From positions 1-21,194 of the IMG/VR virus record IMGVR_UViG_3300020463_002002: DNA of 21,194 nt, one strand, 5' to 3'. The DNA is from a virus. This document shows, piece by piece, positions 3,648-9,713 of this stretch. The notes beneath the pieces are model-generated. The model was not told the DNA's origin, ran no database searches, and saw only the letters and a list, made by a program, of their open reading frames with translations. The translations under genes were made by a program, and so were the position numbers. Numbering within the stretch: position 1 is the first letter of the stretch; each line of letters starts with the position of its first letter.

Positions 3648-4099
3648 TATAATTTTACCTCTATGTTATGATCTTCTGCAAGTTGTTTAATATCTTTTTT
3701 ACTGTTGATCGACGCTAATATTTCAAGTTCATTTTGCTTCATGTGCGGATAAACTTGCTCTAACACTTTTACAAGTTTGTTATTATCTTGTGTTTTCTTT
3801 TTAAATCCTATCCAAGGATGGTACTCAATTTTTCCTGTAGCACCACTCATGCACAATAGTTGCCATTGCAATTTTTGATGCTTGCTTACTTCCATATAGT
3901 TTTTATTATAGTATTCATTTGTTTTGAATATAGCAAGCTCTTGTTTGTCTCTGTCGCCTTGTACAGAACTTACATATCTATTGAGCAACCAAAAACTAAC
4001 TTGTTTACGTTCGTCATCTGTAATCTCATTCCAAACGTTTTTTGCACCCATATCTATGGCTGCTAGTATATCTTTTATTGGGAGTTTTTGTTGTGCCAT
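3647..4099 (-). CDS. Possible clamp-loader small subunit (gp62-like)
   Basis: A 150-aa protein tentatively likened to the T4 gp62 clamp-loader subunit as found in marine T4-like phages. The pattern supporting this is FWLLNRYVSS (36-45), a helix with NEYYNKNY and HQKLQWQLLC, a central Trp in PWIGFKKK, and a C-terminal half of the form VLEQVYPHMKQNELEILAS... DIKQLAEDH, which resembles the helical repeat and the closing helix of gp62. No catalytic motif is expected in gp62. gp44 and gp45 are not next to it, which weakens the call. The start ATG 4099 lies inside the 3' end of kdsB (25-bp overlap), with GAGGA about 9 nt upstream. It could equally be an unrelated conserved phage protein. Confidence 0.4.
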   Translation of the reverse strand: MAQQKLPIKDILAAIDMGAKNVWNEITDDERKQVSFWLLNRYVSSVQGDRDKQELAIFKTNEYYNKNYMEVSKHQKLQWQLLCMSGATGKIEYHPWIGFKKKTQDNNKLVKVLEQVYPHMKQNELEILASINSKKDIKQLAEDHNIEVKL

Positions 4100-4746
4100 T
4101 CCTCTAGATCCTCAGGTGTGTTTATCTCTGTACCTTTATATTGTACACTCTTACATCCTATTTGCCAACCATTTTTTAGCCAACGTAGCTGTTCAAGTTT
4201 TTCAATTTGTTCTTCTTGACTTATCACACTGGGATATTGTTCTAGAGCCTTTGCAGAGTATCCATATATTCCTAAATGCCAATCACCATAACCAGTCATA
4301 CCTCTGCCAAACCATAATGCTCTATCTGTAGATCTTACCATTTTTACAGTGTGAGGATCGTTTTGTTTTTCTTTTGGCATCTCAGTATAAACAGTAGATA
4401 CATCGCAATCCTTTAAAGCATTAATTGCTGTGTTAACAATTTCTGGTGTAACATCTGCCATATCACCTTGAACATTTACATAATGCTTATAATTTACAAA
4501 TGCCTTTACATGTGCGCCTTGGCATCTTTCTGTGCCGTTATCATATTGATCTCTATCAATAATACACGGACCACCTACTGCATTATATATTTCTTGGTGA
4601 TCAGTCAAAACATATGTATCAATGCCTGTGCTTTTACAGATATCATATACACGTTTAATTAGAGGCACACCGTTTAAGTGAGCGAGAGGTTTACCTGGAA
4701 ATCTTGTACTTGCCCAACGTGCAGGAATTAAAATTGCCACACTCAT
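4075..4746 (-). CDS. kdsB: CMP-KDO synthetase (3-deoxy-manno-octulosonate cytidylyltransferase)
   Basis: KdsB couples CTP and KDO to CMP-KDO, the activated donor for KDO transferases. IPARWASTRFPGKPLA (7-22) is the CTP-binding signature; DNGTERCQGAH corresponds to the family's GTERCAEA; VNVQGD is the Mg-binding loop; LGIYGYS matches the HIGIYAY strand; and EQLRWLKNGW ... INTPEDLEEW is the C-terminal signature. In most KdsB proteins this last motif begins with Asp (VDTPEDL), and here it is Asn, so one predicted metal ligand is changed. At 223 aa it is slightly shorter than the usual 245-250. It starts at 4746 in an ATGA overlap with the SDR gene, with GGAGA 8-9 nt upstream. Together with kdsA in the same unit it completes two of the KDO steps. 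Confidence 0.9.
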   Translation of the reverse strand: MSVAILIPARWASTRFPGKPLAHLNGVPLIKRVYDICKSTGIDTYVLTDHQEIYNAVGGPCIIDRDQYDNGTERCQGAHVKAFVNYKHYVNVQGDMADVTPEIVNTAINALKDCDVSTVYTEMPKEKQNDPHTVKMVRSTDRALWFGRGMTGYGDWHLGIYGYSAKALEQYPSVISQEEQIEKLEQLRWLKNGWQIGCKSVQYKGTEINTPEDLEEWHNKNSQ

Positions 4747-5285
4747 AAAGGTCTCCTACTGTGCATTACATCAATAGTATAATTCTTTATAAGCATTTGT
4801 TTTGGCGCAAGCATAACTTGTTCTATAATTATTTTAGCAACATCTGTTGTATCCATTTTTCTAGCTTGTTTGTTTGCAACCAAAGGTGTGTCCATTCTAC
4901 CTAATTTTACTTGTACGACTTTGCATTCGCTGTCTATAAGTTGTAATTGCATACACGCTTTATCTAGTGCCGCTTTATGCACTGCATAAGGATTAATAAC
5001 ATCATAATTACCATCTGCACTAACACTTCCGATGTTAATGATTGTGCAGTCTCTATCTTTGTTTTTCTCAAATAATTTGTAAAGAAGATCTGTTTGTGCC
5101 CAATTTGCATAAGCATTATTAACAAAGACATCCCAATAATTTCTTTGCACAAAGTTTTCTAAATTTTTTTGTAAATCAAATCCATTACTACGGCTCAATC
5201 CTTCTGTATGATAATCATGGAGAATACATGTATCATAAATTGCTTTGCCTAAACCGCTTGTATGTCCTGTTACAAATACGTTCAT
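4743..5285 (-). CDS. Short-chain dehydrogenase/reductase (SDR)
   Basis: A compact 180-aa NAD(P)-binding SDR. VTGHTSGLGKAI (5-16) is the TGxxxGxG cofactor loop, FVNNAYA corresponds to the NNAG strand, IINIGSVSADG carries the catalytic Ser, and PYAVHKAALDKA carries the YxxxK pair. It is shorter than the classical 250 residues and lacks much of the C-terminal substrate-binding part. It sits between gmd (TAATG overlap) and kdsB (ATGA overlap). That position makes it a candidate for reducing a keto-sugar nucleotide, for instance a ColC-like 4-keto reduction after the ColD-like step, although ColC proper is a longer extended SDR. The SDR fold is well supported; the substrate is inferred only from context. 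Confidence 0.75.
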   Translation of the reverse strand: MNVFVTGHTSGLGKAIYDTCILHDYHTEGLSRSNGFDLQKNLENFVQRNYWDVFVNNAYANWAQTDLLYKLFEKNKDRDCTIINIGSVSADGNYDVINPYAVHKAALDKACMQLQLIDSECKVVQVKLGRMDTPLVANKQARKMDTTDVAKIIIEQVMLAPKQMLIKNYTIDVMHSRRPL

Positions 5286-6253
5286 TAGAACCTTTTTAAA
5301 TCCTCATCTACCATCATGGTTATTAACTTTTCAAAATCAACTTTAGGTTTCCAACCTAATTCTTTTTGCAATTTTGTACTATCACCTCTTAGAAAATCTA
5401 ATTCTGCAGGACGGATAAAATTATGATCAATATGAATGTGGTCTTCCCAATCAGTAATTCCAACATGTCTGAATGCTGTTTTACATACGTCTTTTACGCT
5501 ATATGTTTTTCCTGTGGCACACACATAATCTTTCGGTTCGTCTGCTTGTAGCATCATCCACATTGCTTCTACAAAGTCACCTGCATACCCCCAATCTCTT
5601 TTTGCATCTATGTTGCCAAGTCCTATCTTAAAATTTTTTCCATTAGCAATAGCCGCAACACCATTTGTAATTTTACGTGTAACAAATTCAATACCTCTAA
5701 TCGGTGATTCATGATTAAATAATATACCACTACATGCAAACATGTCATAACTTTCTCTCATATTACGTGTAATATGATATCCGTATAATTTAGCTACACC
5801 ATAAGGAGAACGTGGTTGCATATTTGTAGTTTCTCTTTGCCAACCTGCTTCGTGACTGTTACCAAACATTTCGCTAGTGCCCGCTTGATAAAATTTACAT
5901 TTAGGTTTAATTCTACGTACAGCTTCTAAACAATTCAATGGACCTAACGCATCTACCTGACTAGTTACATGAGCTAATCGCCAACTACCACCTACAAAAC
6001 TTTGTGCGGCTAGATTGTAAAATTCATCTGGTTGATGTTTCTCTACAATATCAAATATACTTCCTATGTCAGTTACATCTCCAGTTTCTAAAAATAATCC
6101 TCTTTTTAATAAATCTAAATATTCAATATTATTCCAACTAGGATCGGTATATCTTTTAATCATACCTACTACACGGTAGCCTTTTGTTAGTAAAAAGTCT
6201 GCAAGATAGCAAGCATCCTGTCCAGGAAATCCTGTAATTACAGCTACTCTCAT
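5285..6253 (-). CDS. gmd: GDP-mannose 4,6-dehydratase
   Basis: Gmd converts GDP-D-mannose to GDP-4-keto-6-deoxy-D-mannose, the entry to fucose, rhamnose, perosamine and colitose. The 322-aa protein has the NADP loop GFPGQDACYLADFLL (8-22), the catalytic Thr and Glu in AGTSEMFG, and Tyr and Lys in SPYGVAKLYGY. The diagnostic blocks NHESPIRGIEFVTRKIT and RDWGYAGDFVEAMWMMLQ match the family closely. It is a little shorter than typical Gmd (about 345-370). The ATG at 6253 overlaps the upstream stop as TAATG and has GGAGA about 7 nt ahead. The product is the known substrate of ColD-type dehydratases, and the gene just upstream looks like one. Confidence 0.92.
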   Translation of the reverse strand: MRVAVITGFPGQDACYLADFLLTKGYRVVGMIKRYTDPSWNNIEYLDLLKRGLFLETGDVTDIGSIFDIVEKHQPDEFYNLAAQSFVGGSWRLAHVTSQVDALGPLNCLEAVRRIKPKCKFYQAGTSEMFGNSHEAGWQRETTNMQPRSPYGVAKLYGYHITRNMRESYDMFACSGILFNHESPIRGIEFVTRKITNGVAAIANGKNFKIGLGNIDAKRDWGYAGDFVEAMWMMLQADEPKDYVCATGKTYSVKDVCKTAFRHVGITDWEDHIHIDHNFIRPAELDFLRGDSTKLQKELGWKPKVDFEKLITMMVDEDLKRF

Positions 6254-7419
6254 TATAATGTCTCCATAAGTTCTTTTACTTTTGTAAGTTGTTCTTGTAA
6301 ATTTCTATTGTCATTTCCTAAGAAAAATCCTTGGTCATGAATTTCATCTGCACAGTCATATGTGCCAAATGTTGTATAGTTTAATCTGTCAATCACAGGA
6401 TTACGCATAAAGTTTCCTGCAACAATCGGACGGCATTCAATATAGTTTTTTCTAAATAAATTAATCACTTCTGCACGTCTATCCTTTAAATTATTTTCAA
6501 GAACAAAGCTAAATCCAAAATACGTATGTACACTGTTTTCAGTAGGTAATTGTGTTCTTGCATAATCTACTTCGTCAAAAAGACTATGGTATAATTTACT
6601 ATTTTCTATTCTCCTATATACCATACCGTCTGCTTTTCCTAATTGCACCTGACCAACAGCTCCACTCATTTCTAATGGTCTGACACAATATCCAGGCAAC
6701 ACAAATCTAAAACTATCTTCGAACGGGTCTCCGGACTTTGTGTATAGTGAACTATAATCACCTATGTCACGCACCCATCCATGTGCTCTTAGACTACGCA
6801 TATAATCTGCAAGATCGGCATCGTCTGTAACAATCATTCCGCCTTCCATAGTCTGTAAATGGTGACTAAAAAAGAAACTAAATGTACCTGCATCTCCCCA
6901 AGTTGAACAATATTTGTTAATGTGCTTTGCTCCAAAACTTTCACAATTATCTTCTATTAACACAAGACCATGCCTGTTGCATATATTTTTCAATTTACTT
7001 AATTCACAACTGTTACCTAACAAGTTGACTGCAAATACTGCTTTTGTTTTTTCTGTGATAGCTTGTTCAACTAGATCCGGATCTATGTTTAAACTGTCTT
7101 TGTTAATGTCTACAAATTTTAAAACTAATCCATTTTGCTGTACAGGAAAAAATGTTGTACTCCAACTCACTGCTGGTACAATTACTTCGTCACCTGGATT
7201 TAAATTATAGTTTGGATTCTGTACAATACTTGTTAAAGCAATTAAGTTTGCACTGCTACCACTATTAGTCATTACTGCAAACTTTGCTCCAATATAATCT
7301 GCAAATTCTTTTTCAAATTTTGCAACTTCTGGTCCCATTGTATATCTGCCGCTGTCCATTACTCTTTGTAGTGCGGCTACTTCTCTTTTATCCCAGGTAT
7401 CGTGTGCTAAATTGTACAT
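6253..7419 (-). CDS. PLP-dependent sugar 3-dehydratase, ColD-like (DegT family)
   Basis: A DegT/DnrJ/EryC1-family PLP enzyme of 388 aa. The conserved TNSGSSANL phosphate-binding turn and LIEDNCESFGA (the Asp that pairs with the pyridine nitrogen) are present. The usual FSFxxxK motif, whose Lys forms the Schiff base, reads FSFFFSHHLQTMEGG; the Lys position is His186 followed by His187. A His there is the hallmark of ColD (GDP-4-keto-6-deoxymannose 3-dehydratase) and of E1/RfbH, which remove a 3-hydroxyl instead of transferring an amine. ColD is also about 388 aa. I chose ATG 7419 over the longer frame from 7482, because AAAGGA lies just upstream and it avoids overlapping kdsA. It adjoins gmd, which makes the ColD substrate. 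The exact product is inferred. Confidence 0.8.
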   Translation of the reverse strand: MYNLAHDTWDKREVAALQRVMDSGRYTMGPEVAKFEKEFADYIGAKFAVMTNSGSSANLIALTSIVQNPNYNLNPGDEVIVPAVSWSTTFFPVQQNGLVLKFVDINKDSLNIDPDLVEQAITEKTKAVFAVNLLGNSCELSKLKNICNRHGLVLIEDNCESFGAKHINKYCSTWGDAGTFSFFFSHHLQTMEGGMIVTDDADLADYMRSLRAHGWVRDIGDYSSLYTKSGDPFEDSFRFVLPGYCVRPLEMSGAVGQVQLGKADGMVYRRIENSKLYHSLFDEVDYARTQLPTENSVHTYFGFSFVLENNLKDRRAEVINLFRKNYIECRPIVAGNFMRNPVIDRLNYTTFGTYDCADEIHDQGFFLGNDNRNLQEQLTKVKELMETL

Positions 7420-7438
7420 TGCTTTTCCTTTTGTATAT

Positions 7439-8212
7439 TTAAATATCACCATGCTTTTTGATGTCAGATGCGATTTTTTCAAAGTCTTTTAATTTTATCA
7501 TGTTAGGTCCGTCGCTAGGTGCTACGTCTGGATCTTTGTGGACTTCGATAAAGAAACTTCTGATTCCCATTGCGGCTCCTGCTCTGGCCAGGCGAGGTAC
7601 ATAAAGTCTATTTCCATCTGACGATCCGCCCAAGCCTCCAGGTTTTTGAACGCTGTGTGTAACATCAAAAATAAGATCGGCGCCGTAGTTATCCATAATA
7701 TAAGCCATTCCTGTGAAGTCCACGACCAAAGTGTTGTATCCAAAACTAGTTCCTCTTTCTGTTATCCATAATCTTTTTGCACCTTCAGTTTTTGTTACTA
7801 TTCCGCCTATATCCCAAGGTGCTAGGAATTGACCTTTCTTTATGTTTACAATTTTCTTTGTTTCTACACATGCTCTAATTAAATCAGTTTGTCTACATAA
7901 GAATGCAGGAATCTGTAGTACATCTACAGCATCATCATATATTTCTGATATAGTCTTAACTTGTTGTACATCATGTACATCTGTTAATGTTTGTAAACCA
8001 GCAATCTCTAATTTCATTGTACGAAATGCTTCTAGTGTGACATCTAGTCCTTTGCCTCTTGGACCTTTCATACTTGTTCTGTTTGCTTTATCAAAACTTG
8101 CTTTGAATATATAATCTATATCTAAACTGTCGCATACACGTTTGCATTCACGTGCTATTTCTATACTTTGAGCAAGAGATTCGTGTTGACAAGGTCCTGC
8201 TATAATTCTCAT
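7439..8212 (-). CDS. kdsA: KDO-8-phosphate synthase, metal-dependent type
   Basis: KdsA condenses phosphoenolpyruvate and arabinose-5-phosphate to KDO-8-phosphate. The 257-aa protein shows FKASFDKANR (37-46), LTDVHDVQQV, LQIPAFLCRQTDL (99-111), IKKGQFLAPWD (124-134), TERGTSFGYN (151-160), FDVTHSVQKPGG and SDGPNM, all core KdsA blocks. The N-terminal GPC motif has Cys8 where non-metal enzymes have Asn, and H186, E223 and D234 fall at the spacing of the Aquifex metal ligands (C11, H185, E222, D233), so a metallo-enzyme is predicted. The ATG at 8212 overlaps the pyrF stop as ATGA and has AAGGA 6-7 nt upstream. KdsD (Ara5P supply) and KdsC (phosphatase) are not in the window and would come from the host or elsewhere. 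Confidence 0.93.
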   Translation of the reverse strand: MRIIAGPCQHESLAQSIEIARECKRVCDSLDIDYIFKASFDKANRTSMKGPRGKGLDVTLEAFRTMKLEIAGLQTLTDVHDVQQVKTISEIYDDAVDVLQIPAFLCRQTDLIRACVETKKIVNIKKGQFLAPWDIGGIVTKTEGAKRLWITERGTSFGYNTLVVDFTGMAYIMDNYGADLIFDVTHSVQKPGGLGGSSDGNRLYVPRLARAGAAMGIRSFFIEVHKDPDVAPSDGPNMIKLKDFEKIASDIKKHGDI

Positions 8213-8850
8213 CTGTTTTCCTTTATATCTAAAAGAGCTTTCACTGGATCATCACTCTGTGTAATAGTTCTTCCTATAACCAAATAGTCTGCACCTAAGT
8301 CAACTGCCTGTTTGGCTGTTACTGTTCTAACCTGTCCTTTGTTTTTTCCTATGCCTGGACAAACTTTTATATAATGTTTTTCTAAGTTAGGAATGTTTTC
8401 TATATCACTTGCAGAACATATTACACCACTAAATCCGTAAGGACTTATTCTGTCTAAATGAGTCCTCCACATTAAATTCATAGCAGTGTTTGTTATTCCA
8501 AATCTCTCTTCTGGCGACCAACTTGTTAGATATGTTACACCTAATAGTTTAACTTGCTTTGCTAATGGTTGTATTTCTTCAAACACTGCTTCGTTGTTGT
8601 GTGTGCAAATTGTAGTCATTGTAGCACCTTTGTCTACAATCTTTTGAACAACCTGCTTTACAGTATTTGGTGTATCCCAGAGTTTACAATCAACAAACAA
8701 TTCACCTGCTTTTGTGTAGTCTTTTATGTATACACTTTGGCTCCATAGTGCATGATTTATTTTAAATCCATCTGCAACGTCACGCAACTTTGCACACATT
8801 TCTAATGCTTCTAATGGGTTGGTATAATCTAATGCAACTATAATTTTCAT
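8209..8850 (-). CDS. pyrF: Orotidine-5'-phosphate decarboxylase
   Basis: PyrF decarboxylates OMP to UMP, the last de novo step of pyrimidine synthesis. The catalytic D-x-K-x-x-D array appears in FVDCKLWDTPNTV (D54, K56, D59), the CPGIG...GQVR loop and LVIGRTITQSDDPVKAL give the phosphate-binding Arg and C-terminal signature, and IIVALD opens strand 1. Length, 213 aa, is normal for the short bacterial class. I chose ATG 8850 rather than 8865, because it forms an ATGA overlap with the stop of the 28-aa ORF upstream. It sits directly ahead of kdsA; UMP made here could end up as CTP, the cosubstrate of KdsB, or simply support phage DNA synthesis. Confidence 0.9.
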   Translation of the reverse strand: MKIIVALDYTNPLEALEMCAKLRDVADGFKINHALWSQSVYIKDYTKAGELFVDCKLWDTPNTVKQVVQKIVDKGATMTTICTHNNEAVFEEIQPLAKQVKLLGVTYLTSWSPEERFGITNTAMNLMWRTHLDRISPYGFSGVICSASDIENIPNLEKHYIKVCPGIGKNKGQVRTVTAKQAVDLGADYLVIGRTITQSDDPVKALLDIKENR

Positions 8851-8933
8851 AAATTTTTCCAACATAGGTAAGCATAAAATAATGCACCTAAGAATAGTGT
8901 CAATAACAAAACTTCTTCATCTGATATTATCAT
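8847..8933 (-). CDS. 28-aa single-pass membrane peptide
   Basis: A very short ORF of 28 codons. It starts at ATG 8933, read leftward, and ends in TGA at 8847. The peptide has an acidic N-terminus (MIISDEE), one hydrophobic helix (VLLLTLFLGALFYAYLCW) and a short polar end (KNL), so it should be a membrane peptide with the N-terminus outside the bilayer core. AAAGGAG lies 6 nt upstream of the ATG. It forms ATGA overlaps at both ends: its ATG with the stop of the 85-aa gene, and its TGA with the pyrF start. Two such junctions plus a strong ribosome site make chance unlikely. No function is recognised; it is shorter than common gene-calling cut-offs. Confidence 0.7.
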   Translation of the reverse strand: MIISDEEVLLLTLFLGALFYAYLCWKNL

Positions 8934-9187
8934 TTATTCTCCTTTACCATATAGTATGTTATTACTAATTTGTTAAGTAACTTTTTTAGAGTTTGATTTG
9001 TTTGTGCAAGGTCGCAAAGATTTTGCCACTCGCTATAATCTAATAATTTGCCCTGTGCTCTTGCTACTCCTCCTGGATCACCTCCTACTATCCATCTTTC
9101 TATTTCTGGCTTATCTCTATACCTAGCGTATACTACACCGTCTGCTCTTTCATAAATTAATGCTTGTCCAGGTATTAATTTACCCAT
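8930..9187 (-). CDS. Small conserved phage protein of unknown function
   Basis: An 85-aa protein beginning MGKLIPGQALIYERADGVVYARY, then a Pro/Gly-rich middle (WIVGGDPGGVA) and a helical C-terminal half (LLDYSEWQNLCDLAQTNQTLKKLLNKL). I recognise the opening as similar to small uncharacterised ORFs in marine T4-like phages, but no function is known to me. ATG 9187 is preferred to 9202, because GGAA lies about 8 nt upstream and the overlap with the methyltransferase gene shrinks to 8 bp (ATGGGTAA). Its stop forms an ATGA junction with the 28-aa membrane ORF, and its last codons carry that ORF's ribosome site, so the two are probably translationally coupled. Confidence 0.65.
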   Translation of the reverse strand: MGKLIPGQALIYERADGVVYARYRDKPEIERWIVGGDPGGVARAQGKLLDYSEWQNLCDLAQTNQTLKKLLNKLVITYYMVKENK

Positions 9188-9713
9188 GTGTAAGTTCCAC
9201 ATCTATTCTTTGTTTTTTATTTGTATACATGTCTACAATTTTCATATTCATAGCAAATTCTATACGTTCTCTCCACCATGCTTCTTCTTCGATTATTAAA
9301 TGTGCATTACGCCCATCAGATAAAATTTTTGTTGCAGGTTGTGTATCTATTCTTAGCCAAACATGTTTTTCACTTTGTTGTTCAATAAATTGTAACACAC
9401 TATCAAGATATAATGGTTCAACATGTTCAAGTACATCATTTGAAAATACTACATCAAATTTTTGTTGTGGTAATTGATCGTATATTTTAACTGCTGGGTC
9501 ATATCCTAAACAATGTATATGCGGATATTTTTCTCTAATCATTTGGAGCAATGCTCCCTTGCCACAACCAAAATCTAAAATAGATCGAGGCTTCCATTTT
9601 TTTATACAAGCCTCGAACTCTTTAATTTTTTTCTTCTTGTTGCCAAAACCTCTTGCATGAGCGTTGTGTACGCTTTTAAGTAATTCTAAATAGTTATGAC
9701 TGCACAGTTCCAT
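9180..9713 (-). CDS. Class I SAM-dependent methyltransferase
   Basis: A 177-aa methyltransferase. SILDFGCGKGALL (44-56) is motif I, the SAM-binding glycine loop; CLGYDPAV (68-75) carries the acidic residue after strand 2; and FDVVFSNDVLEHVE (86-99) is motif post-II in the form common to the ubiE/Methyltransf_23-like group that methylates small molecules and sugars. Nothing indicates a DNA methyltransferase (no N/DPPY or PCQ motif). I used ATG 9713, which follows the oxygenase stop by one base, not TTG 9722. It sits between a TauD-like oxygenase and the 85-aa gene. Sugar O-methylation is plausible from context, but the acceptor is not visible in the sequence. Confidence 0.8.
   Translation of the reverse strand: MELCSHNYLELLKSVHNAHARGFGNKKKKIKEFEACIKKWKPRSILDFGCGKGALLQMIREKYPHIHCLGYDPAVKIYDQLPQQKFDVVFSNDVLEHVEPLYLDSVLQFIEQQSEKHVWLRIDTQPATKILSDGRNAHLIIEEEAWWRERIEFAMNMKIVDMYTNKKQRIDVELTHG

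Follow-up and report, generated by a model that had tools for sequence, protein, structure and literature searches.

A 28-codon reading frame on the minus strand of a 21,194-nucleotide virus record (IMGVR_UViG_3300020463_002002; the whole stretch is referred to here as the window) is almost certainly a real gene encoding a membrane peptide. The gene is under purifying selection, and intact homologues in related contigs, together with this selection, are the decisive evidence that it is a selected gene. The preliminary description of the region had proposed a very small, selected gene, too short for most gene finders, and the 15 complete, intact homologues and a pN/pS ratio of 0.27 bear this out.

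The micropeptide gene occupies positions 8847..8933 (read from 8933 to 8847) and its translation is MIISDEEVLLLTLFLGALFYAYLCWKNL; the plus strand across the same interval is full of stop codons. A Shine-Dalgarno sequence, AAAGGAG, is located 5 bases ahead of the ATG (8945-8939, minus strand), within the 3′ end of the upstream gene. The start codon overlaps the stop codon of this upstream 85-aa gene by four bases (ATGA, 8930..8933), and a second ATGA (8847..8850), identical in all 15 complete homologues, joins the micropeptide stop to the pyrF start. A 4-base overlap on either side and an upstream ribosome-binding site, as expected of ATGA-coupled genes, were therefore both found. The final codons of the micropeptide (TTGGAAAAATTTATGA, 8847..8862) also form a weak pyrF Shine-Dalgarno, which reads GGAA in the window and GGAG in 4 of 10 distinct homologous sequences (see below). 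The ribosome-binding site at a good distance, the junctions with both neighbours (8933-8930 and 8850-8847) and the identity of the following gene as pyrF had all been described correctly. Of the 533 ATGs on the minus strand, only 3 are preceded by AAGGAG at the same spacing, while overlapping junctions (ATGA or a 1-base overlap) are the norm in the minus-strand gene run, with -4 or -1 overlaps at 11 of the 22 junctions examined. The probability of 28 open codons arising by chance at the local base composition is P = 0.13, and that of an open frame with at least the hydrophobicity of the micropeptide is P = 0.004. By itself, this anatomy is suggestive: moderately unusual, and no proof.

The 85-aa gene (8930..9187, minus strand) belongs to no known family that we could find. 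It is listed among the open reading frames with a start at 9202, and the start is probably at 9187, because a stop codon precedes this position in a close relative. The pyrF gene, encoding orotidine-5′-phosphate decarboxylase (8209..8850, minus strand; OMPdecase 2.7e-30, TIGR01740 above cutoff), was assigned a start at 8850, since the ATG at 8865 is absent in a close relative. Family matches identify the remainder of a nucleotide-sugar module (4075..8212, minus strand) as kdsA, a DegT aminotransferase, a gmd-like gene, an SDR and kdsB; kdsA passes the NCBIfam cutoff (PRK05198), and for kdsB and gmd these are the best families, below cutoff. The operon from pyrF to kdsB (4075-8850) looks like a CMP-Kdo or amino-Kdo route, with pyrF perhaps feeding pyrimidine nucleotide. 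Elsewhere on the minus strand of the window, adjoining sulfotransferase-like, APS-kinase-like and nucleotidyltransferase/ATP-sulfurylase-like genes (972-2324) may make up a phage sulfation set. A 188-residue protein (419-985), in which PDIDIDF lies close to the N-terminus, weakly matches the DNA polymerase III alpha finger domain (E 0.007, below cutoff) and may be a pared-down fragment of DnaE; it has no PDB match.

Homologues were sought in IMG/VR using two peptides as queries, and then wider alignments. The micropeptide was found to be encoded by 16 further contigs, one copy being cut off by the contig end and the other 15 being complete and 68-86% identical. Many of the contigs are near-duplicates, and the 16 complete copies, including that of the window, represent 10 distinct DNA sequences. 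All complete copies have exactly 28 codons and ATGA at both junctions, and 15 residues are invariant in the 10 distinct sequences (M1, S4, D5, E7, L10, T12, L13, G16, Y20, A21, Y22, L23, W25, N27 and L28). The pN/pS ratio is 0.27 in the frame of the micropeptide, and 0.73 and 0.95 in the other frames. A neutral simulation, which assumed a transition bias of 3 and used a tree built from the same bases that it tests, gave a median pN/pS of 0.79; none of 1000 runs reached a value as low as 0.27, and all frames stayed open in 0.4% of runs. In the closest relative, IMGVR_UViG_3300020463_002180 (L002/L107/L123), the frame is kept between the same two genes as MIISDAETMLLTLVFGAILYAYLVWRNL, differing from that of the window at 17 of 87 bases, with no indels and a dN/dS of 0.42. 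The two signs of protein coding, a conserved frame and purifying selection, were both observed in the relatives. No relative was found in which the frame is broken between conserved flanks, the result that the preliminary description had named as contrary to its proposal.

The micropeptide occurs at two sites. Conservation between the same flanking genes, a check that had also been proposed, holds for the closest relative (L123), but most homologues are located in another operon, before a UDP-sugar dehydrogenase. The peptide precedes pyrF in only 2 of 17 contigs (the window and L123), and these two copies share 68% protein identity, being more divergent than their flanking genes. In the other 15 contigs it follows a gene for 87-93 residues, with a stretch of hydrophobic residues and in most cases the ending RWRAK. 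This site lies shortly downstream of a family B DNA polymerase gene, and both ATGA junctions are present here too. The next gene there, wherever the contig reaches, encodes a UDP-glucose/GDP-mannose dehydrogenase, and is followed by an epimerase and a cytidylyltransferase. The only element common to both sites is the micropeptide itself: the upstream and the downstream genes are unrelated, and the downstream genes at both loci encode nucleotide-sugar enzymes. The idea of an obligate pyrF partner was rejected, because among 17 pyrF loci only one (L002) has the micropeptide within 260 bases upstream. Two Pantoea matches in bacterial genome contigs (L174, L175), in which YAYLCW lies inside a 58-residue ORF, were taken as chance.

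Among cultured phages, Sinorhizobium phage Phosso (469 kb) and Agrobacterium phage Atu_ph07 (490 kb) are closest both to the UvsW protein of the window and to the polymerase found at the other site. Two contigs, one of 146 kb with the polymerase site (G031) and one of 168 kb with the 85-aa gene (G018), have 73 ORFs in common, mostly 60-90% identical, and are colinear over ~100 kb; on the basis of this colinearity, both slots are assigned to one lineage of large marine T4-superfamily phages. No contig carrying both sites was found among those analysed, the G031 and G018 stretches each missing the other locus. Transfer between unrelated phage lineages, raised for this reason, was dropped given that these two contigs are colinear relatives. 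G031 is offset from G018 by ~40-44 kb, and from the offsets and match positions we infer that the two sites are ~180 kb apart in this genome type. In a tree of the 87 bases of the peptide gene, the window copy forms a pair with one from the polymerase site (support 90/93), and the pyrF-site copies were joined in 1% of bootstrap trees. This pattern would fit repeated copying or gene conversion between the sites; a single clade was not rejected by the AU test (p 0.1), which allows one origin.

Both sites also exist in an empty form. At the polymerase site of L134, L136 and L146, the upstream gene (60-63% identity with its L126 counterpart) runs directly into the dehydrogenase gene (63-74%), with TAG or TAA followed by ATG. 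The 85-aa gene of the other site has 71 relatives, of which 23 are joined by ATGA directly to kdsA, with neither the peptide nor pyrF in between, and the micropeptide motif is absent from the 400 bases after the 85-aa gene in all 71. The window peptide and pyrF therefore look like a two-gene insert between the 85-aa gene and kdsA, or like genes lost elsewhere. Since the conserved flanks are directly adjacent in relatives lacking the peptide (L134, L136, L146), the micropeptide is dispensable. A different, 31-residue membrane peptide (MNNEGLNLIALMLICIIGTLCLNALVWSLTN), for which no family match was found, begins by ATGA in the polymerase-site slot of L161 and L162, immediately behind the homologue of the 93-residue gene. 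In relatives L019-L098, the gene after the 85-aa gene may be kdsA, an S-adenosylmethionine synthetase-like gene, a cupin-like gene or another, mostly joined by ATGA, which makes this a slot of variable cargo with a Shine-Dalgarno of its own.

The double ATGA coupling had been put forward as a sign of selection on the peptide, and this argument is weakened. The coupling is not peptide-specific: in 50 of its 71 relatives, the 85-aa gene overlaps whichever gene comes next by ATGA, and AAGGA, present in most relatives lacking the peptide, lies in the C-terminal codons of the 85-aa gene itself, ahead of many different next genes. The upstream Shine-Dalgarno and the ATGA are properties of the slot, and not of the peptide. 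At its 3′ end, the micropeptide gene reads TGG ARA AAT TTA TGA, which gives the next gene GGAG or GGAA. The AAT and TTA codons are invariant, without synonymous change, and their role in supplying the Shine-Dalgarno of the next gene may explain why they are frozen.

A single hydrophobic span after an acidic start, noted in the preliminary description, was recovered by sequence-based prediction: acidic residues at positions 5-7 are followed by a spanning-length hydrophobic core of ~18 residues and by K or R at position 26. The mean Kyte-Doolittle value is 1.8 over 19 residues and the hydrophobic moment is low (0.04), which argues for a membrane span and against an amphipathic helix. One inner-membrane span, approximately residues 8-25, is predicted. 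The topology is probably N-out/C-in according to the positive-inside rule, with acidic residues before the span and a basic residue after it. The invariant T12xxxG16, together with small residues at positions 17 and 21, suggests packing onto another helix.

We consider it reasonably probable, with the inferred steps weighted in, that the product is an accessory, single-span inner-membrane micropeptide, ATGA-coupled at the head of nucleotide-sugar modules, whose helix packs on a membrane partner and whose function is linked to glycans. The inferred steps are translation, membrane insertion, topology, partner and glycan link. Ribosomes would re-initiate from the upstream gene onto the micropeptide and then pass to the downstream gene via the ATGA junctions. 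The peptide would be accessory cargo at the head of either of two modules, one beside the DNA polymerase (UDP-sugar dehydrogenase-epimerase-cytidylyltransferase) and one in the window (pyrF-kdsA-aminotransferase-gmd-SDR-kdsB). Helix-to-helix packing with a host or phage inner-membrane protein would be the most likely mode of action; the partner plausibly handles envelope glycans, and the micropeptide would then assist the surface modification encoded by its operons. An inner-membrane role in phage-directed change of envelope glycans is our favoured guess, since a nucleotide-sugar module begins at each of the two sites, and a tentative one, as it rests on neighbours, and glycan genes are frequent neighbours in these phages in any case. 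Unlikely, in our estimate, is the more elaborate proposal of a new micropeptide family that forms a one-gene cassette, ATGA to ATGA, heads different nucleotide-sugar operons, is kept similar by recombination and acts as a membrane adaptor for envelope modification.

The preliminary description had named membrane remodelling, lysis timing and superinfection exclusion as roles that such micropeptides can have. The same dispensability, the two slots and the short span with its small-xxx-small pattern could be expected of a peptide for superinfection exclusion or host takeover whose target is a host inner-membrane protein without a connection to glycans, and the surrounding cargo slots do differ between relatives. 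However, no resemblance to known exclusion proteins was seen in the libraries searched, and we hold this reading to be improbable. A regulator of lysis or of the membrane during infection (an antiholin-like peptide, or one that forms a small ion channel or depolarises the membrane) would also have a single hydrophobic span and an acidic N-terminus in a phage context. Both loci, however, are flanked by DNA-polymerase-side and nucleotide-sugar genes, none of them identified as a lysis gene, and no match to a holin, antiholin or superinfection-exclusion family was obtained with Pfam, PHROGs and NCBIfam, profile searches being weak for 28 residues; such a regulator is distinctly improbable. The frame might instead be maintained solely to bring ribosomes to the downstream gene for re-initiation, with a functionless peptide as its product. 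ATGA on both sides in each copy and final codons that carry the downstream Shine-Dalgarno, two of them without synonymous change, are consistent with such a leader or translational coupler. A coupler, however, needs an open frame and not a fixed protein, and the low pN/pS and the invariant residues point to the latter; moreover, the dehydrogenase gene also follows the upstream gene directly in contigs that lack the peptide, which is therefore unnecessary for coupling. The amino-acid constraint and the empty sites rule out pure coupling as the sole explanation, and we regard this reading as very improbable. A chance ORF within the 80-base spacer has a negligible probability, for although 28 open codons are not rare at the local composition, the homologues at two loci are every one intact and under strong purifying selection, which rules it out.

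The preferred reading, an accessory membrane micropeptide, concerns a 28-codon ORF between overlapping phage genes that is easily missed by ordinary annotation and whose status as a selected gene could be verified with metagenomic contigs as the only material. A natural series is formed by two occupied and two empty slots and by the 31-residue peptide in the L161/L162 slot; it bears on the contribution of the micropeptide and on the movement of tiny genes as exact units in compact operons.

Comparison with family models (Pfam, PHROGs, NCBIfam) gave no match for the micropeptide. Neither the micropeptide, its locus nor the 93-residue gene had a DNA or protein match in cultured phages (including a tblastn of the phage collection), and the absence from cultured phages and bacterial genomes applies at the search sensitivity for a 28-residue query. 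The only PDB match of the micropeptide, to a helix of a haem transporter (E = 5.2), was not meaningful. KdpF, CydX and the Pf3 phage coat protein have ~28-45 residues and one span; the first two are believed to work by packing onto a larger membrane protein, in whose operon their genes are located, and the Pf3 coat protein is inserted N-out. The micropeptide resembles these proteins in its size and single span, and showed no similarity to them in the searches made. ATGA overlaps are common in prokaryotes and have been shown experimentally to be coupled (PMC6728339). As in those termination-reinitiation pairs, a 4-base stop/start overlap is combined here with a Shine-Dalgarno inside the upstream gene, whereas in the present case two such pairs follow one another, with a 28-codon gene as their shared middle member. 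The small proteins of phages form a recognised class whose members are mostly uncharacterised (PMC11323111), and small phage genes have been surveyed by Fremin et al. 2022, as cited in PMC11364881. The micropeptide is assigned to this class as a new family: like other members, it is short, missed by standard annotation, conserved and likely membrane-associated (PMC11323111). Unlike them, it has a sequence that no phage small protein shares in the libraries searched, and it fills two precise slots in one lineage.
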